This document shows positions 39,323 to 47,835 of a stretch of 64,000 nucleotides of DNA, one piece after another. The stretch covers positions 1,392,001 to 1,456,000 of the forward strand of contig NC_022792.1 of assembly GCF_000504085.1 (NCBI RefSeq), given 5' to 3'. Under the pieces are notes generated by a model. The model had not been told where the DNA came from. It worked only from the letters and a program-made list of their open reading frames with translations, and ran no database searches. The stretch is from Pseudothermotoga elfii DSM 9442 = NBRC 107921. GTDB lineage: Bacteria; Thermotogota; Thermotogae; Thermotogales; DSM-5069. Made by a program: the position numbers and the translations under genes. Positions within the stretch are counted from its first letter, which is position 1, and each line of letters opens with the position of its first letter.

Positions 39323-40342
39323 TTATCCCCTGAAAATATTATAAATCTCTGCATTGAGAACTGCACACCCGGCAGCCCCTCTGATTGTATTATGAACAAG
39401 AGCAACGAGCCCAAACTGTTTGTTCGAATACTGTTTCAACCTGCCAACACTGACACTCATTCCACCACCAAGATCTCTGTGCAACTTCGGCTGCGGAGAA
39501 TCAACTCCTGTCAAATAAAAAACAGGTTTTTCAGGTGCGGTTGGAAGATACATTCCTTTAAGTGGTTGAAAATCTTCAAAAGCTCTCACAATTTCACTTA
39601 AAGTGGCCTTTTCCTGAGTTTTGATAGTTACAGATAGCATATGACCGTCAACAACGGCTACCCTGTTGCACTGTGCGAAAATATCGAGATTCGCCGGGTA
39701 TATTTTTCCATCTTTCAATCTGCCAAGTATTTTTTTTGATTCGGTCATGATTTTTTCTTCCTCATTTTTTATGAACGGCACAATATTGTCAATTATATCC
39801 ATAGATGGTACACCGGGATATCCCGCGCCAGAAATAGCCTGCATTGTGACAACATTTGCCTCTTCTATACCGAATCTATCCATTATGGGTTTAAGAACCA
39901 TTGTAAAACCTATCGTTGAGCAATTGGGGTTGGTAATTATTTTTCCTTTTCTCTTTTGAGTTTCGGTTATTTTCAAATGATCCAGATTAACTTCAGGGAT
40001 AATTAGAGGTACATCCTCGTCCATTCTATGGCTCGCGGCATTTGAGAAAACAATGTATCCTGCGTTTGCAAATTCCTCCTCAATTTCGCCTGCAACATCT
40101 GAAGGCAAAGCAGAAAACACATAATCACAATCTATATCAGGTGTGCATTTTTTTAAAACCATATCTCCTGCTTTTTCGGCTACAGGAACATTCAAGCGCC
40201 ATTGAACTGCTTCTCTGTACTTTTTTCCCACAGAATTATCAGAAGCTGCCAGAGCTGTTATCTCAAAAAATGGATGATTTGAAAGCAATTGAACAAATCT
40301 CTGTCCAACAAGCCCTGTTGCACCAAGAATAGCTACCTTCAT
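39323..40342 (-). CDS. asd: aspartate-semialdehyde dehydrogenase
   Basis: A 339-residue Asd that reduces aspartyl phosphate to aspartate semialdehyde with NADPH. The N-terminal GATGLVGQRFVQLL binds NADP; NPNCSTIG carries the catalytic cysteine, and the histidine lies in KLHRDLGGGMSVSVGR. The sequence type is the archaeal/fungal-like Asd branch (LLSNHPFFEITALAASD). ATG at 40342 with AGGAGGAGAATGGT. It sits 14 bp after the MTHFR gene in the methionine operon and provides the aspartate semialdehyde that the COG1900 protein would sulfurate. Confidence 0.94.
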   Translation of the reverse strand: MKVAILGATGLVGQRFVQLLSNHPFFEITALAASDNSVGKKYREAVQWRLNVPVAEKAGDMVLKKCTPDIDCDYVFSALPSDVAGEIEEEFANAGYIVFSNAASHRMDEDVPLIIPEVNLDHLKITETQKRKGKIITNPNCSTIGFTMVLKPIMDRFGIEEANVVTMQAISGAGYPGVPSMDIIDNIVPFIKNEEEKIMTESKKILGRLKDGKIYPANLDIFAQCNRVAVVDGHMLSVTIKTQEKATLSEIVRAFEDFQPLKGMYLPTAPEKPVFYLTGVDSPQPKLHRDLGGGMSVSVGRLKQYSNKQFGLVALVHNTIRGAAGCAVLNAEIYNIFRG

Positions 40343-40356
40343 ACCATTCTCCTCCT

Positions 40357-41295
40357 TTATCTATTGAAAACAGCCTCGAGCAAGGCTTTTGTGGATTGCC
40401 CTCTTCCCATTGTAAAAACATGCACACCTGGAGCTCCGGAACTCAAAAGCTTCTCAACCAGTTTTGCCATATACTTTGTTCCAATCTGAAATTCTTCTCT
40501 ATGTGTCTTTGCTTCTTGCATCTGCTTAACAAATGATTCTGGTATATTAACGAAAAATTTTCTTGGTATAGTGTAAATAGATTTCAAGCTTACAACGGGT
40601 TTTACCCCAGGAATAATAGGAACATTTATTGAAAGCTGCCGTGCACGCTCCACAAATTTTTTGTAAACATCAAAATCAAAAATCATTTGTGTGATTACAT
40701 AATCGGCACCAGATTCGATCTTTTTCTTTAAATACCTCATATCTTCTTCTATATTTGGTGCTTCAAAATGCTTTTCAGGATAACCCGCAACACCTATGCA
40801 AAAATCTGTTGGTTTCGCATTTTCACATGGATAAAGATATTCTCCCATATTCATATTTGAAATCTGTTTCACCAAATCTGAGGCATGCGAGTAGCTATCT
40901 TTTTCCTCTATCGTCTGATTCTCGTACTCGCCTCTAATGACAAATAAATTCCGAACGCCTATCAAGTGGAGGTCTATCAACATATCCTCTATCTGGTATT
41001 TGTTCATCCCAAAGCACAAAACATGTGGAACAACATCAATATTGTACCTGTTCATAAGTGCGGCGGTCATTCCCACGGTTCCCGGGCGTTTTACTTTGGG
41101 AACCTTTACAATCCCATCTTCGAGCTCCAAATATGTCATCTCTGGAGCATGTTTTGTAACATTGATAAATGATATTGGAAAGTTCATCAGTTCATCCAAA
41201 ACAGCGTATATTTCTTCTATATTCTGTCCTCTGTTTGGCGGCAAGATTTCTATTGAGAGTATCTGACCTTTTTTCACACAATCAATCACTTTCAT
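40357..41295 (-). CDS. metF: methylenetetrahydrofolate reductase
   Basis: A 312-residue MetF-type flavoprotein TIM barrel that reduces methylene-THF to methyl-THF, the methyl donor for MetH. Motifs: LSIEILPPNRG (catalytic Glu region), FINVTKHAP, HVLCFGMNKYQIEDMLIDLHLIGVRNLFVIRGE and GADYVITQMIFDFDVY. Start ATG at 41295 with GAGGATGGTGTTC, overlapping the 3' end of the COG2122 gene by 14 bp; the longer frame to 41319 lies inside that gene. Confidence 0.93.
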   Translation of the reverse strand: MKVIDCVKKGQILSIEILPPNRGQNIEEIYAVLDELMNFPISFINVTKHAPEMTYLELEDGIVKVPKVKRPGTVGMTAALMNRYNIDVVPHVLCFGMNKYQIEDMLIDLHLIGVRNLFVIRGEYENQTIEEKDSYSHASDLVKQISNMNMGEYLYPCENAKPTDFCIGVAGYPEKHFEAPNIEEDMRYLKKKIESGADYVITQMIFDFDVYKKFVERARQLSINVPIIPGVKPVVSLKSIYTIPRKFFVNIPESFVKQMQEAKTHREEFQIGTKYMAKLVEKLLSSGAPGVHVFTMGRGQSTKALLEAVFNR

Positions 41296-42031
41296 GAACA
41301 CCATCCTCTTCACGCTCAATCAATCTAAGCTCGTGTTCTCCTATTAGACCGAATTTATCCCCATAAATAACCAGAACAGTCAATACATATTCATTTAGAG
41401 CCTTGTTCAGAAGATTGCCAATATCTTCTTCCTTTTTTACTCTGTTACAATACGATGTTGCAAAAGCATCGGCAACAGCTGCCGTTTCCGAAACAACTGT
41501 CACTGCATCAGCGTTGCCAAAACTTATTGAATGTCCAACAGTGCCCGAAGAGGTACATATCCCCCATCGCCCCGGTGGAATCTCAAGCCCAATTTTGCCA
41601 GACAGAACTGAATTTCCAGCATATACAGATACCACTACCGGCTCAATATTTTTTACAAATATATCTCCCCCGTTTTCGATTAAAACTTCTTTGCAGCCAT
41701 ATCTTTCTATCAACAAATCTCCAATTTCATCAGCAATCGCTCCTGCAATAGAAGCCATAGGACCCACCCCGGCAAGTTTTGATGCTGAAAGCATTCTTTT
41801 TATAACACCTGATTCACTACTTATATCTACTGGCTTGAAGGAAACTAAAAACTTTGGATACCTCGAAATACATTCTCTGATCTGAGAGTGTATCTCAATG
41901 AGTGATTGATAAACGCCGTTTTTCATACTTTCGTCATATACATCAACACCAATCCATAAATCGGACTCCCTGTAAACAACCGTGAAACTTTTGAATCTTT
42001 TTGAATGCCAGCTTCTATAAAATCTATTCAT
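41282..42031 (-). CDS. COG2122/UPF0280 (ApbE-like) protein of homocysteine synthesis
   Basis: A 249-residue UPF0280 protein with ApbE-like pattern: MASIAGAIADEIGDLL, VLIENGGDIFV, GRWGICTSSGTVGHSISFGNADAVTVVSE and AAVADAFATSYCN. In Methanosarcina acetivorans the homologue MA1715 is needed, together with the COG1900 protein MA1821, to make homocysteine from aspartate semialdehyde and sulfide. Here it overlaps that partner's gene by 8 bp (ATGAATAG), strongly supporting the same role. No ribosome site precedes the ATG, so translation is probably coupled. Confidence 0.85.
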   Translation of the reverse strand: MNRFYRSWHSKRFKSFTVVYRESDLWIGVDVYDESMKNGVYQSLIEIHSQIRECISRYPKFLVSFKPVDISSESGVIKRMLSASKLAGVGPMASIAGAIADEIGDLLIERYGCKEVLIENGGDIFVKNIEPVVVSVYAGNSVLSGKIGLEIPPGRWGICTSSGTVGHSISFGNADAVTVVSETAAVADAFATSYCNRVKKEEDIGNLLNKALNEYVLTVLVIYGDKFGLIGEHELRLIEREEDGVHESD

Positions 42032-43346
42032 CTGGAGGTAATTTCACTCCCACCGGGCATGCATCAGAACACTGTAAACACATGGTACATTTCTCCCTGA
42101 GGAAAGTGAACTTTCCATCTACAAGCAAAAGTGCGTCGAAAGGGCATAAACTCACGCATGCACCACAGTCAACACATTCTGGTTTATCTTCTTTCTCAAT
42201 CTTGGCAGAAACTTCCTTAAGGCTTTTAATGGATCTCTCTTCGTTGAACAATTGAACAGGACTGGTTATCAAAAAAGTGCCACTTTCAATCCATGTTTTC
42301 AATACAGCTGCTATTTCGCGGGCCATGCTCAAGCTTGATATGGATGATGTTTTCACTTTTTTTCCTCCAATTTCTATATAGCCACTTCTGAGCTGAGCAT
42401 AATTAACACGCATGAGGGTTGGCCTGCCTTCTTTTCCATAATCTTTCACTTCTGTCTCTATTTGTTCGTTTCCGAGCGAAGCAAAAAAGGCTATTTCCTC
42501 ATTCAAAATTGGAATTGGTACTCCTATCCCTACAAACAGAGTCACACCATAACCTTTGAAATATGCAGCCTTTATGTATCTATGATTCATTTTCTTGGCA
42601 TCCCCAATTACAGAAATAGTTCTTGCTGCACTAATTGGTACTCCATATCTGTTAGTCTCAACATCATTTCTAAACTGAGTACCTGGCCATATTACATAGC
42701 CATCTGTACCGCATAAAAAGATTCTTGTTCCTAAACCTATTGTGTACATATTTGGATCTTTCAGCAGGGGACTTAATTCTCCTGATGTTGAGTAAGTCAC
42801 ATTCCCAAAATTTGGCAGCAACTTTCCCATATAGGTATATATAGTTAAATCAGAGCTGTTCGTCGCAGCAGCGTAATTTTGATAAGCATTTCTCGGATTA
42901 AAAAGGAAGAAATCATTTATAACCTCCTTGTTTATATAACCTTCAAACTGTTTTCTTGGATAACAATCTGTGCCTTTTCCAGAAGTTTTCAGTTGCAAAT
43001 TTTTCCCTTTAATCAAGGCTTCTATTATATGGGCACCACCAAATGTTTTATCTTCCTGAGATTCCTGAGTAGCTCCTACATATCCATCTACCGCGGCCAG
43101 ACCTCCGTAAACATCAACACCAGATAATTGGATTTTTTCCATGCGCATAGGTGGCATTGTGTGCCCGAAATTTATAAAAGCTCCACTTGAACACATCGGT
43201 GCGAAAGTCGCCGTGGTCACGACATCGACTTTTTTTGCCACTTCTTTTACGGATGATTCTCTGGCAAGCTGAACTACTTCTTCAGCTGTCATAACAACTG
43301 CTTCTCCACGCTTGATCTTCTCATTAATTTGCTCAACTGTTTTCAC
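42024..43346 (-). CDS. COG1900/DUF39 aspartate semialdehyde sulfurtransferase fused to ferredoxin
   Basis: A 440-residue protein: DUF39 domain (residues 1 to about 365) plus a C-terminal two-cluster ferredoxin (CVDCGACVSLCPFDAL, CTMCLQCSDACPVG). Candidate catalytic cysteines are C52 (APMCSSGAF) and C128 (GTDCYPRKQ), matching the two functional cysteines known for M. acetivorans MA1821. That family inserts sulfide-derived sulfur into aspartate semialdehyde, giving homocysteine without homoserine. GTG start at 43346 after GGAGGTGAGAGAT, overlapping lysC by 14 bp. The adjacent COG2122, asd and metH genes support the assignment. Confidence 0.88.
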   Translation of the reverse strand: MKTVEQINEKIKRGEAVVMTAEEVVQLARESSVKEVAKKVDVVTTATFAPMCSSGAFINFGHTMPPMRMEKIQLSGVDVYGGLAAVDGYVGATQESQEDKTFGGAHIIEALIKGKNLQLKTSGKGTDCYPRKQFEGYINKEVINDFFLFNPRNAYQNYAAATNSSDLTIYTYMGKLLPNFGNVTYSTSGELSPLLKDPNMYTIGLGTRIFLCGTDGYVIWPGTQFRNDVETNRYGVPISAARTISVIGDAKKMNHRYIKAAYFKGYGVTLFVGIGVPIPILNEEIAFFASLGNEQIETEVKDYGKEGRPTLMRVNYAQLRSGYIEIGGKKVKTSSISSLSMAREIAAVLKTWIESGTFLITSPVQLFNEERSIKSLKEVSAKIEKEDKPECVDCGACVSLCPFDALLLVDGKFTFLREKCTMCLQCSDACPVGVKLPPDE

Positions 43347-44685
43347 ATCTCTCACCTCCAAAAAATTCCTTATGAATAGCCCTTAAAGCATTGTCTCTAT
43401 CTCTGGTGTCTACCAGAAAATAGATAGTTACGTCTGAGGCACCCGCAGATATCATTTGTACATTTATGCATTGCTTGGAGACAGCAGAGAAAATCCTCGC
43501 AGCAACGCCATGCTTTTTTAGAATCCCGTCACCAACTGCTGCAATAAGAGAAATCTTTTCTTTATAGCATATATTTTCGACTTCGCTTATTTTCATCTTG
43601 GATGTTATTTTGCGGCATTTTTCTATATCCTGATGAGAGATGAGAACGTTTATGCTCGTCTGGGAAGTCACAACAGATTTTATGTTTATTCCTTCATTTC
43701 CAAAATTAGAGGCAATCTGTCCAAGAAGACCAGGAACACGCCCAACATTGGGCCCTTTGAATTGAATGATCGCTATATCATCAGTGAAAGATATACTTTT
43801 AATTATTTCATCTGTGACTGATCCGCTGGATGATATTACTGTGTCTGGATTTTCGATCGATCTGAAGGAATTTATATTGTAAATGTAAAGTGGGATGTTT
43901 TTTTTCTTAACAGGATCAACTGCAGAATGATGAAGTATTTTGGCACCAAAATAAGATAATTCTGCTGCCTCATCATAGGTAAGCCTGCTCACCGGCTGAA
44001 CTCCATCAACACATTTTGGATCGCACGTCATGAATCCAGAAACATCTTTGTATAAATCAACCCTTTCTGCATCTATACAGTAAGCTATGGAAGTTGCTGA
44101 ATAATCACTTCCCCCGCGGCCAAGAATCGTGATTTCTCCTTCATAAATGCCGTAAAAACCTGGAACTATATAATTCTTGTTGTCCTTAAAAAAATCTTTT
44201 AGATTTTTCTCACTGGTATATAAATCAATCGACGCGCTCTTAAATCTTCCATCTGTTAACAATCCAAATTGCTCTGGTAGGGCTTCTTCACATTGAAGCC
44301 CGTGATCATTAAAATAATGGCTCAGGAGCAGAGAAGAACACCTTTCTCCATGACTGACGACATGGTCATAAACAAAATCTGGTACTCGCCCAATTAATTT
44401 TGCTCCCATCAGCAGATCTCTTATCTGATAAACCCTTTCTTTTAAGTCGGAATATTCTCTATCCAGAAAATTTTGATAAATCGAATATAAATCAAAAAGA
44501 AATTCATCGATATCTATGTCTTTAATGACTTTCAACGCCCTGATTAAAGAATTTGTCACACCATTAACTGCAGAGACCACTAAAATAAAAGATCTGTCGT
44601 ACATCCTGACAACCTCAAAAATTTTCGAAAGATCATCTTTATTTTTCAAACTTGAGCCACCAAATTTGAGCACAACTTTTTTCAT
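43333..44685 (-). CDS. lysC: aspartokinase
   Basis: A 450-residue aspartate kinase with KFGGSSL at the N-terminus, VVSAVNGVT, GRGGSDYSAT and DPKCV-type active-site segments, and two C-terminal ACT domains (VGRVPGLLGQIASNFGNEGINIKSV; GVAARIFSAVSKQCINVQMISAGASDVTIYFLV). The ACT domains imply feedback control by an amino acid, presumably lysine, threonine or methionine. It overlaps metH by four bases (ATGA) and feeds the same operon's Asd. Confidence 0.94.
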   Translation of the reverse strand: MKKVVLKFGGSSLKNKDDLSKIFEVVRMYDRSFILVVSAVNGVTNSLIRALKVIKDIDIDEFLFDLYSIYQNFLDREYSDLKERVYQIRDLLMGAKLIGRVPDFVYDHVVSHGERCSSLLLSHYFNDHGLQCEEALPEQFGLLTDGRFKSASIDLYTSEKNLKDFFKDNKNYIVPGFYGIYEGEITILGRGGSDYSATSIAYCIDAERVDLYKDVSGFMTCDPKCVDGVQPVSRLTYDEAAELSYFGAKILHHSAVDPVKKKNIPLYIYNINSFRSIENPDTVISSSGSVTDEIIKSISFTDDIAIIQFKGPNVGRVPGLLGQIASNFGNEGINIKSVVTSQTSINVLISHQDIEKCRKITSKMKISEVENICYKEKISLIAAVGDGILKKHGVAARIFSAVSKQCINVQMISAGASDVTIYFLVDTRDRDNALRAIHKEFFGGERCENS

Positions 44686-47003
44686 CTTTCATTTTCCTTT
44701 CTGACTATTTTTTTACATATTTCCAGTGCCTTGAGGGCATCTTTTGCATACAATACACCAAATTGGTTCGCAAGTTGCTCATTCATTGAAGCACCACCAG
44801 CTATTACTACAACGCGCACGTTGTTCTTTTTGAGCAAATCAGAAACCTCTTTTACTTGTCCAACAGTGGTTGTCATCATAGCAGAAAGGCCAACTATATC
44901 AGGTTTTAAACGCTCGCACTCCGAGAGGATCTTTTGAGCTGGTACATCTTTCCCAACATCGTAAACTTCAAATCCACCGCTCTTTAAAACAGTCGCCACA
45001 ATTCTTTTTCCAATATCGTGTATATCCCCCTGAACAGTAGCAAGCAATACCTTGCCAAGCTTTGCCTGAGCTTCGCCAAGAAGGTTGTTCAGATAATCAA
45101 AAGCTGGCTGAACTGTTTCAGAAGCCAGAATCAAATGAGGAAGGTAAATAATACCCTTGGAATAAAGAGTCCCTATCTGCTCCATTGCCCTGGCAAGCAT
45201 ATTTTGACTTATATAAAGAGGCTCTTTTTCTTTCAGCGAATCTTTCACAAAATTCATCAATTTTTCTTTTTGCCCGCTCACTATTAACTTCACCAGTTCA
45301 TCTTCTATCACCTGCTCTGTTTTTGCAGGCTCTTTTCCTTTAAGTTGCAATGCGCCACGAAGGACATTCATTGTTGTTGCTTCCGCACTATTCAATATAG
45401 CCGCACTCAATCCTTTTTCGATACACAATGCGAGAAAAGCTGCATTGACACTCTCTCTGTTAGCAAGCCCAAAACTCAGGTTTGAAAGACCTATTGATGT
45501 TTTCAAACCAGCCCGGTTCATGAGTTCAATTGCTTTTAAAGTTGCATGATAATCATTTTTTGCGCCAGCAGGTAGCACCAGTGGATCAAAATAGACCCTC
45601 TCAAGATCAACATCATGATCTTTCAGAAATTCAGCAGTTTTCATAGCAATTTTAAATCTCTGCTGAGCTGTTTCAGGTACATGCTTTTCCATGGCAAGCA
45701 CAATCAACATACCGCCATATTTTTTTAAAAGTCTTATTCGTTCTTCGAGATGATCTTCTCTTGCAAAAGCTGAGTTGATCAACCCTCTTCCAGCATATTC
45801 TCTCATTGCACTTTCGAGGAAGTGGAGATTCTGTATATCGAACGAAACAGGGAGTGAAGATCTTTTGTCAAGTTCTACAATTGCTCGTCTAAAATGATCG
45901 TGAGTTAACAGTTTTTCTATCCCAAAATTCAAGTCTATAGCATCGCAACCTTCCTGCTCCTGAAGTTGAGAGAGTTCAACAACTTGCGAAAAATCCATCT
46001 GCTGAATCTTGGCTTGCAGCTTTTTTTTTCCACTTGCGTTGATTCTCTCACCTATTACTAAAAATGTGTCAGTAGGTCTCAAGATAGTTCTTGAAGAAAG
46101 ATATTGTTCTCTCTTAACTTGTCTTTTTCGGGGTTTTTGATTGCTTATATATTTGCACATAACCTTTATATGTTCAGGACCGGTACCGCAACAACCTCCT
46201 ACGATATTTGCCCCAAGTTCAATAAAATCTGCCATATAAACGGCAAATTCTTTCGGAGTGGTTTTATAGCTGAGTCTGCCTTTCTTGAGAATGGGCTTTC
46301 CTGCATTCGGCTCAACACAAAGTGGTTTCATGGAAAGCTCCGATAGCTTAGTGAAAACAGGCAACATTTCATCTGGTTCAAGTGAACAGTTTATGCCAAC
46401 CACATCAACATCGAGGTCATTCATGAGAGTTGCGAAAATCTCTACGGAGGTTCCACTGACTGTTTTTCCATCTGCTTCGAAAGTCATATGTGCTATCAGA
46501 GGTATTTCATGGGATAAATCACGAACTGCGATAATAGCAGCTTTAAGCTCTTTTAGATCTGACATCGTTTCTAATATTATTCCATCCACACCAGCTTCTA
46601 TAAGTAAAGAAGCCTGCTCTTTAAAAACCTCGTAAGCCTCTTCAAAATCGAGATCTCCGAGGGGACTTATGAAATTTCCTGTAGAAGATATATCGCCGAA
46701 AACAAATTTTCCACCAGAAACAGATTTTGCAATCTTAACTGCGTTAATATTAATCCTTTCTAAATCCTTTTCCAAATTGTAAGCACGCAATTTGAGCCTG
46801 TTGGCGCTGAATGTATTTGTCAATATTATGTCCGAGCCTGCTTCTATATATTCTCTGTGAAGCTTTTGAACCTCTTCTGGATCCTCAATATTCAAAAGCT
46901 CAATTAACCCGTTTACTCCTCTTTTAAAAAACTCTGTCCCATATGCACCATCAAGAAACAAAACTCTCTCCTGGAGCAACTGAAAAAATTCATTTCTTCT
47001 CAT
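44682..47003 (-). CDS. metH: cobalamin-dependent methionine synthase without activation domain
   Basis: A 773-residue MetH. Domains in order: homocysteine-binding barrel (LFLDGAYGTEFFKRG; zinc ligands in GINCS and GGCCGTGPEH), pterin-binding barrel (FLVIGERINASGKKKL, DAIDLNFG), cap helix domain, and B12 domain with GDIHDIGKRIVATVL carrying the cobalt-ligating histidine. The activation domain of E. coli MetH (about 1,220 residues) is missing and is supplied by the gene just upstream, the split form typical of Thermotogae. ATG 47003 overlaps that gene's stop (ATGA). Confidence 0.95.
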   Translation of the reverse strand: MRRNEFFQLLQERVLFLDGAYGTEFFKRGVNGLIELLNIEDPEEVQKLHREYIEAGSDIILTNTFSANRLKLRAYNLEKDLERININAVKIAKSVSGGKFVFGDISSTGNFISPLGDLDFEEAYEVFKEQASLLIEAGVDGIILETMSDLKELKAAIIAVRDLSHEIPLIAHMTFEADGKTVSGTSVEIFATLMNDLDVDVVGINCSLEPDEMLPVFTKLSELSMKPLCVEPNAGKPILKKGRLSYKTTPKEFAVYMADFIELGANIVGGCCGTGPEHIKVMCKYISNQKPRKRQVKREQYLSSRTILRPTDTFLVIGERINASGKKKLQAKIQQMDFSQVVELSQLQEQEGCDAIDLNFGIEKLLTHDHFRRAIVELDKRSSLPVSFDIQNLHFLESAMREYAGRGLINSAFAREDHLEERIRLLKKYGGMLIVLAMEKHVPETAQQRFKIAMKTAEFLKDHDVDLERVYFDPLVLPAGAKNDYHATLKAIELMNRAGLKTSIGLSNLSFGLANRESVNAAFLALCIEKGLSAAILNSAEATTMNVLRGALQLKGKEPAKTEQVIEDELVKLIVSGQKEKLMNFVKDSLKEKEPLYISQNMLARAMEQIGTLYSKGIIYLPHLILASETVQPAFDYLNNLLGEAQAKLGKVLLATVQGDIHDIGKRIVATVLKSGGFEVYDVGKDVPAQKILSECERLKPDIVGLSAMMTTTVGQVKEVSDLLKKNNVRVVVIAGGASMNEQLANQFGVLYAKDALKALEICKKIVRKENER

Positions 47004-47563
47004 ACACTTAACCACCCTATCATGCAAGTTGTAGTCTTTCTTGGAATCATTACACCACTCTCAAGAACTTTCACCTGATCTGCCCTCAAAAGTCTTTCAA
47101 CTATGTATTTATTCATACGCATATCAACATTGCCGTAACCAGGTGAAAATCTCATTGTGCCAGCTCCAAATTGCTCCCTGAATTTTCTGTCCACATTCTC
47201 ATTGAGCTTTTCGAGAGATTCAGAAGCCCATGAATCTATTATTAGAGATTCAAAGGTTTTACCAGAATCTGAATAATATTCGATCAGCATATCTATCTTT
47301 TTTCCAAGAGTCGACAAAAAAATCGTAATCTTTCCCACATTTTCGAAGGTATCTGGGATGAGCTCTTTTGGAAGCTCTGATTTTTCGAAGAATGAATACC
47401 ACACAACAGGATCTATCTGATCATATGCTTCCAGAAACAGTGAATTTATCTTCTTGATCAGCTGGTCTCTTGCCAACGTCGAGTATTTAGCACCCGCTCT
47501 GGCAAGAAATATTCTTTTGTCTGGCATACATTCTTCTTTCTCAGGCTTGTATGTATGTACCAT
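47000..47563 (-). CDS. MetH reactivation-domain-like protein
   Basis: A 187-residue protein matching the activation domain of cobalamin-dependent methionine synthase in stand-alone form, like T. maritima TM0269: ITIFLSTLGKKIDMLIEYYS, then MRFSPGYGNVDM, and ESGVMIPRKTTTCMIGW at the C-terminus. It helps reductive methylation of MetH cobalamin using SAM. ATG at 47563 with GGGGGAG three bases upstream, rather close; no better start is seen. It is the first gene of the methionine operon, directly downstream of the leader terminator. Confidence 0.87.
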   Translation of the reverse strand: MVHTYKPEKEECMPDKRIFLARAGAKYSTLARDQLIKKINSLFLEAYDQIDPVVWYSFFEKSELPKELIPDTFENVGKITIFLSTLGKKIDMLIEYYSDSGKTFESLIIDSWASESLEKLNENVDRKFREQFGAGTMRFSPGYGNVDMRMNKYIVERLLRADQVKVLESGVMIPRKTTTCMIGWLSV

Positions 47564-47577
47564 ATTCTCCCCCTTAC

Positions 47578-47609
47578 AAAAAAGGGGCGTTCCCATTTGA
47601 GAACGCCCC
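47578..47609 (-). terminator. leader terminator of the methionine operon
   Basis: On the minus strand GGGGCGTTC (47609-47601) pairs perfectly with GAACGCCCC (47592-47584) over an 8-base loop, followed by TTTTTT (47583-47578). It ends five bases before the first gene's ribosome site. This is a textbook intrinsic terminator in a leader, so expression must be controlled by attenuation. Confidence 0.92.
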
Positions 47610-47615
47610 TTCGAT

Positions 47616-47667
47616 ATTCTCCAAGCACACTTAAACGCCCGGAGAATCTTTCGGGGCGTCAGTGCGC
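47616..47667 (-). ncRNA. pseudoknotted leader RNA, candidate riboswitch for the methionine operon
   Basis: On the minus strand, P1 forms from GCGCAC (47667-47662) and GTGTGC (47630-47625), with one G-U pair. P2 forms from ACGCCC (47659-47654) and GGGCGT (47640-47635). The P2 loop segment ATTCTCC (47647-47641) pairs perfectly with GGAGAAT (47622-47616) just 3' of P1, a pseudoknot. ACGCCCC (47659-47653) can instead pair with GGGGCGT of the terminator (47609-47603), a 7-bp antiterminator. Folding of the pseudoknot would hide ACGCCC and let the terminator form. I do not see the SAM-I core, a T-box or B12 box. Ligand unknown; SAM, homocysteine or methionine are candidates by context. Confidence 0.7.
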
Positions 47668-47670
47668 ATT

Positions 47671-47679
47671 ATCATAGCA
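47671..47679 (-). promoter_or_regulatory. extended -10 promoter of the methionine operon
   Basis: Minus-strand TGCTATGAT (47679-47671) fits the extended -10 pattern TGN-TATNAT. The predicted start point, near 47664-47665, falls at the 5' edge of the P1 stem, so the transcript would begin with the structured leader. No clear -35 is visible. Confidence 0.55.
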
Positions 47680-47835
47680 TTTATTCTGAAAAAATTCTTA
47701 ATGACTACAGATATCATTTCACACTTCCTCTCACACATTTTTTTGATATTATATCTTCATAAGTTTTACGCATTTATTTTAATAAGGTAAACATAAACTT
47801 TCAGTACATCAATTTTCCATTAATCAGGTAATGGC

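Follow-up and report, generated by a model that had tools for sequence, protein, structure and literature searches.

Bacterial control of methionine genes is usually credited to the S-box and other SAM riboswitches, to T-boxes or to MetJ/MetR. Methionine is an awkward amino acid for attenuation, since it is also the first residue of any leader peptide. In Streptomyces lividans, a leader peptide with several Met codons, metL, has been predicted before metNIQ; the authors find no typical Rho-independent terminator and describe the termination as unclear (PMC8079986). The uORFC-8-2 motif before cysS, found computationally in Rhodobacterales, combines an upstream ORF carrying tandem cognate codons with hairpins and a terminator, as does the leader described here, but its codons are Cys codons and its hosts are Rhodobacterales (PMC8632094). 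For methionine leader peptides or attenuators, our search of the open literature returned only S. lividans metL; an earlier prediction is possible in the survey of Lopatovskaya et al. (2010).

Here, we analyze the leader of a methionine operon in a 64,000-nucleotide stretch of the Pseudothermotoga elfii genome (hereafter, the window). We are highly confident that the leader works by methionine-specific, ribosome-mediated transcription attenuation.

The operon and the leader ORF

The seven genes downstream of the leader include those for methionine synthesis:

47000 to 47563, minus strand: first gene, MetH reactivation-domain protein (PDB 1j6r 'methionine synthase', E=2.5e-20; Shine-Dalgarno at 47567-47575; no Pfam match to this gene)
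44682 to 47027, minus strand: methionine synthase (S-methyl_trans, pterin-binding and two B12-binding domains)
43333 to 44685, minus strand: aspartokinase (AA_kinase and ACT)
42024 to 43361, minus strand: homocysteine biosynthesis enzyme HcyBio with 4Fe-4S
41282 to 42031, minus strand: PRK04334-like (UPF0280/ApbE-like) protein, with matches below the curated cut-offs
40357 to 41319, minus strand: methylenetetrahydrofolate reductase (MTHFR)
39323 to 40342, minus strand: aspartate-semialdehyde dehydrogenase

At the sequence level, the region upstream of these genes holds a short leader ORF with its own ribosome-binding site:

47748 to 47755, minus strand: GATATAAT, probable -10 element of the actual promoter, lying 78 nt ahead of the Met-Ile-Met codons
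47724 to 47732, minus strand: Shine-Dalgarno GAGAGGAAG of the leader ORF
47631 to 47717, minus strand: leader peptide ORF MISVVIKNFFRINAMIMRTDAPKDSPGV, 28 codons plus TAA, with homologous in-frame ORFs in relatives
47667 to 47675, minus strand: control codons ATG ATA ATG (Met-Ile-Met), ATG-ATR-ATG in every member

The ORF begins with the ATG at 47717 and ends with the TAA at 47631-47633, which places its stop codon in the 3' side of the P1/P2 hairpin, that is, in the 3' arm of what had been taken for an aptamer. The preliminary description had the operon promoter open straight into the element. The 10-nt block in question, TATGATAATG (47667-47676), has no -35-like hexamer and is the Met-Ile-Met codon run itself, in frame within an ORF that has its own Shine-Dalgarno and an upstream TATAAT. 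The promoter probably lies at that TATAAT (47750), from which a translated leader would be produced; the -35 of this likely promoter is weak, and each of the eight leaders checked has a TATAAT or TATACT 70 to 87 nt before its control codons. The T preceding the codons and the ATA codon of TATGATAATG are conserved at the nucleotide level beyond coding need, possibly as a pause site or a second promoter.

RNA helices, terminator and antiterminator

The following helices are formed by the leader RNA or are predicted to compete within it:

47661 to 47667, minus strand: P1 5' arm GCGCACT, covarying pairs, start of the 1:2 hairpin
47625 to 47631, minus strand: P1 3' arm AGTGTGC, covarying pairs
47654 to 47659, minus strand: P2 5' arm ACGCCC, covarying pairs
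47635 to 47640, minus strand: P2 3' arm GGGCGT, covarying pairs
47653 to 47659, minus strand: antiterminator outer helix 5' arm ACGCCCC (the P2 5' arm plus 47653)
47636 to 47647, minus strand: antiterminator inner stem 5' arm ATTCTCCGGGCG, containing the supposed pseudoknot strand
47616 to 47627, minus strand: antiterminator inner stem 3' arm TGCTTGGAGAAT
47603 to 47609, minus strand: GGGGCGT, the switch point, serving as 5' arm of the terminator and as 3' arm of the antiterminator outer helix
47578 to 47612, minus strand: intrinsic terminator hairpin with T6, stem GGGGCGTTC/GAACGCCCC

P1 (GCGCACT/AGTGTGC), P2 (ACGCCC/GGGCGT) and the terminator with T6 had been proposed before, and all are present, conserved and covarying. 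Their pairs are 93% formed in 18 distinct sequences; 10 pairs are changed on both sides and 31 cells are compensated, where shuffles give 10.0 +/- 3.0. These counts lean towards the modelled structure because the 18-sequence alignment was fitted to it. Sliding the partners abolishes the signal. The leader folds at -48.5 kcal/mol (z = -7.3), and none of 200 shuffles is as strong.

The proposed alternative 7-bp pairing of ACGCCCC with the terminator arm GGGGCGT is also present, and this outer antiterminator helix covaries. It is absent from the covariance model and was scored on a 20-sequence alignment, the counts being uninformative on five sequences alone; it is 97% formed, with 3 pairs changed on both sides, a value reached by 7 of 500 shuffles. 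When the transcript is folded as the polymerase leaves the terminator 5' arm, all five closest leaders adopt a long nested antiterminator of -32 to -37 kcal/mol, with ACGCCCC...GGGGCGT as its outer and ATTCTCCGGGCG...TGCTTGGAGAAT as its inner helix; in these five the 3' arm region of the inner stem reads ACTTGGAG or GCTTGGAG. When a ribosome is placed over the first Met codon, this antiterminator stays intact; placed over the stop codon, it reduces the fold to -10 to -13 kcal/mol, with the terminator free to form (folding of the same five leaders). Most of the 24 folded leaders, among them Trp and His versions, show the ON fold; for several of the 24, a misplaced terminator boundary makes the result unusable as a test. 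The minimum-energy fold of several full-length leaders retains both the antiterminator inner stem and the terminator, which means that the choice must be made kinetically. The 1:2 hairpin, antiterminator and terminator with its U-run are mutually exclusive helices, and the earlier claim of a cis-acting, mutually exclusive termination switch before a methionine-synthesis operon is supported.

Distribution of the leader

Within the genus, the leader with its start codon and in-frame ATG-ATR-ATG occurs in all four genomes, and it is also found in Coprothermobacter platensis. At the equivalent site the three other genomes of the genus encode VGNFGTYHFEKNVMAMIMCIYAPGGSPGF, VKSLGIFIHFENNVIVMIMCIHAPGGAPGI and MRYVQTVISSGVCDTIMIMRIDAPGGIPGI, each followed by a stop codon and each with GGAGG at a constant 7 nt before the start codon. 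The N-terminal halves of the leader peptides are unrelated in sequence across the genus, and the frame is nonetheless kept. Met-Ile-Met, the next 11 codons and the stop align without gaps, and indels occur after the stop. In other genera of the family, the leader was not found in the 300 nt upstream of homologous genes at six loci.

C. platensis belongs to another phylum. Its leader, ending in SMIMCGNALGGAPGV and a stop codon, lacks a clear Shine-Dalgarno and precedes an operon of identical seven-gene composition. Leaders ending in SMIMCTNAPGGAPGV occur in two further genomes, which makes three in Coprothermobacterota in all. The C. platensis leader and the whole of its operon are closely similar to those of the genus. 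This similarity suggests horizontal transfer.

A first covariance model was built from five leaders and searched against 103 Thermotogota and nine Coprothermobacterota genomes. Over all models, leaders were found in at least six Thermotogota families, in one of them as weaker cases, and the genes after strong matches are always methionine genes (metH/MTHFR, HcyBio, aspartokinase or metQNI). With the first model, leaders ending in NMIMCTSAPQNSPGV, SMMMYGNALVSSGA and VMMMYRNALVFPPGG precede metQNI, the second of these in nine genomes of one genus; those ending in NMIMCGYAPVFSPGV and SMMMCGDARDFRAG precede HcyBio, and one ending in YMMMRHTPPKLGGRV precedes aspartokinase. A refined model added NMMMCRPLSVLWGVF before metQNI, DMMMRWKAPGSCPPVCRL and VNMMIMCGMWKNWPPLSFAV before aspartokinase-HcyBio, and weaker ones; all of these peptide endings are followed directly by a stop codon. 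Strong matches of the refined model stop at E=4.5e-8, followed by a gap to 1e-4. Among 390 genomes, in which many other families were represented by one or a few members each, strong matches are confined to Thermotogota and Coprothermobacterota. The weak matches outside both phyla (models R1-R3, E ~1e-4 and worse) were, wherever read, ordinary gene-end terminators with no Met runs.

Since the earlier models contain the Met codons, a third model, R3, was built from the bases after them as a control for ASCERTAINMENT. Across the 103 genomes, 11 of 11 untrained R3 matches with E<1e-4 carry ATG-ATR-ATG (MIM or MMM) directly before the modelled part, nine of them from one genus, so that not all are independent. 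Four more MMM leaders are among the weaker model matches, as are leaders with His, Trp or aromatic codon runs. A codon run matching the amino acid of the operon stands at a fixed place before helix 1. In other families TATGATAATG becomes TATGATGATG, by which Met is kept and the resemblance to a -10 is worsened.

Leaders reading SDMIMC were seen in three genomes of one genus, with marginal model scores (E 0.01-0.07). Behind two of them lies a 169-aa gene of unknown family (MRVQIGGPILGTSRFRRYD...), their position hinting at a methionine-related role for this gene.

Parallel leaders for other amino acids

The same layout occurs with other codons. In the source genome, outside the window (1995688-1995787, minus strand), the leader MKCFILSRDVRSNIMWWWYCPDSVG, closed by a stop codon and followed by a terminator, precedes a trpB-like gene; the WWW run before a trpB-like gene recurs in a second genome. 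An HHH leader (LHHHQNAPG; MDCLCAQIDLQNNSIINLHHHQNAPGVTPPGLF and a stop) precedes the his operon of another genome, in which the first gene is HisZ-like and further his-like genes follow. These Trp and His versions are without TATGATAATG. Aromatic-rich leaders, YFYFWYW(KDT) and AYAYWWF, stand before an ABC transporter in four genomes; the transporter, which includes an ITQIVDHPALN substrate-binding protein, is possibly a Trp or aromatic uptake system. Possible Trp leaders ending in NIINWWWHL(G) and a stop, with a terminator, were also noted in two genomes. The codon run changes with the pathway and the scaffold stays, as expected for attenuation but not for a riboswitch.

Proposed mechanism

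The sensor is taken to be the translating ribosome, because a conserved ORF is preceded by a Shine-Dalgarno, its Met codons keep a fixed place, and Trp and His versions stand before Trp and His genes. The ORF, the placement of its codons, the covarying alternative helices and the association with methionine genes are observed, and from them ribosome stalling and an in vivo response to methionine would follow in this way. Transcription would start upstream, and the 28-codon leader peptide would be translated behind the RNA polymerase. Under a shortage of Met-tRNA, the ribosome would stall on AUG-AUA-AUG and cover the P1 5' arm; with P1/P2 blocked, ACGCCCC and the inner stem would pair with the terminator 5' arm region as the antiterminator, and the operon would be read. 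When Met-tRNA is plentiful, the ribosome would reach the UAA in the 3' side of the hairpin and mask the inner stem of the antiterminator, and the terminator would form. With no ribosome, P1/P2 would form and termination would be the default. As a counterpoint, methionine limitation also lowers initiator fMet-tRNA, and weaker leader translation is expected; reduced initiation on the leader should then favour default termination.

Alternative explanations

A nascent peptide responding to Met or SAM within the exit tunnel, rather than empty Met-tRNA, could also arrest the ribosome on this leader. In favour of this, the genus and Coprothermobacter have a similar C-terminal APGGxPG[VIF]; against it, the RNA pairing dictates this part of the peptide, and other families (YMMMRHTPPKLGGRV, NMMMCRPLSVLWGVF, VNMMIMCGMWKNWPPLSFAV) have lost it and keep only the Met codons. 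We consider peptide arrest very improbable.

The preliminary description favoured a riboswitch in which P1, P2 and a 7-bp pseudoknot form an aptamer for SAM, SAH, Met, cobalamin or folate. A compact conserved hairpin does lie directly before the terminator and a methionine operon, and the complementary 7-mers ATTCTCC/GGAGAAT are present. No known Rfam family accounts for the leader: scans at gathering and permissive thresholds gave nothing relevant, with no riboswitch (SAM, SAH, THF, cobalamin) or T-box at the gathering threshold in the window and 20 related loci, and sub-threshold matches near the leader at chance level. The 7-mers are, however, not independent evidence of a pseudoknot, because these strands are also partners within the nested antiterminator. 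The pseudoknot was rejected as a separate helix, its pairing being indistinguishable from the antiterminator inner stem; among the three helices proposed, P1 and P2 covary in related leaders, and support for the pseudoknot independent of other pairings was not found. By geometric reasoning, the pseudoknot would be hard to combine with P1, since the 13-bp P1-P2 stack would need to be bridged by only 2 nt (UU). The unpaired loop and tail nucleotides diverge across families, and the element is an ORF with conserved Met codons on a scaffold that also carries WWW and HHH before Trp and His genes, which points to the ribosome rather than a ligand. We regard a ligand-binding riboswitch here as extremely improbable.

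That TATGATAATG is a second, internal promoter of a short terminated small RNA, with the Met codons incidental, is scarcely credible: the 10-nt block resembles a -10 and is conserved in the genus and in Coprothermobacter, but it has no -35 and is replaced elsewhere, the frame, Shine-Dalgarno and stop are conserved, and the Trp and His versions do without it. Methionine-specific attenuation by the translating ribosome remains our preferred explanation.

Comparison with known systems

SAM-I (S-box) and other methionine regulatory RNAs likewise control methionine operons, often by transcription termination, but they sense ligands and are not translated. A search for SAM-I (RF00162) in 45 Thermotogales genomes found none. 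A deep-branching phylum appears here to control methionine genes by classical attenuation, on the scaffold of its Trp and His leaders and in common with Coprothermobacter. We lean towards the view that Thermotogota, which apparently lack SAM-I, have in Met-codon attenuation one of their major methionine regulators, and that it moved with the operon into or out of Coprothermobacterota. If true, this would be the first well-supported family of Met-specific leader-peptide attenuators, despite the fact that starvation depletes the initiator tRNA too; how a Met switch separates a shortage of elongator from one of initiator tRNA is a testable question. The locus also illustrates that a leader ORF can mimic a pseudoknot riboswitch.

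S. lividans metL resembles the present leader in placing a Met-codon leader peptide ahead of a methionine importer, and differs in its sequence, MSTTSDRTPATEATTTPGARCMCRRMCAF, and in being leaderless; a family or covariation is not described in the accessible part of that report (PMC8079986). With the classical attenuators (trpL, hisL, leuL, thrL, pheL), the leader shares regulatory codons in tandem, placed immediately ahead of helix 1 or inside it, a stop codon in the 1:2 region, a mutually exclusive antiterminator and terminator with a U-run, and an amino-acid operon downstream. In contrast to them, the control codons here are Met codons and the hosts are Thermotogota and Coprothermobacterota, and the sequence shows no relation to the leader families of Rfam (cmscan gave no match). 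The mechanism is a known one, classical ribosome-mediated attenuation; its specificity is new and its distribution wide.
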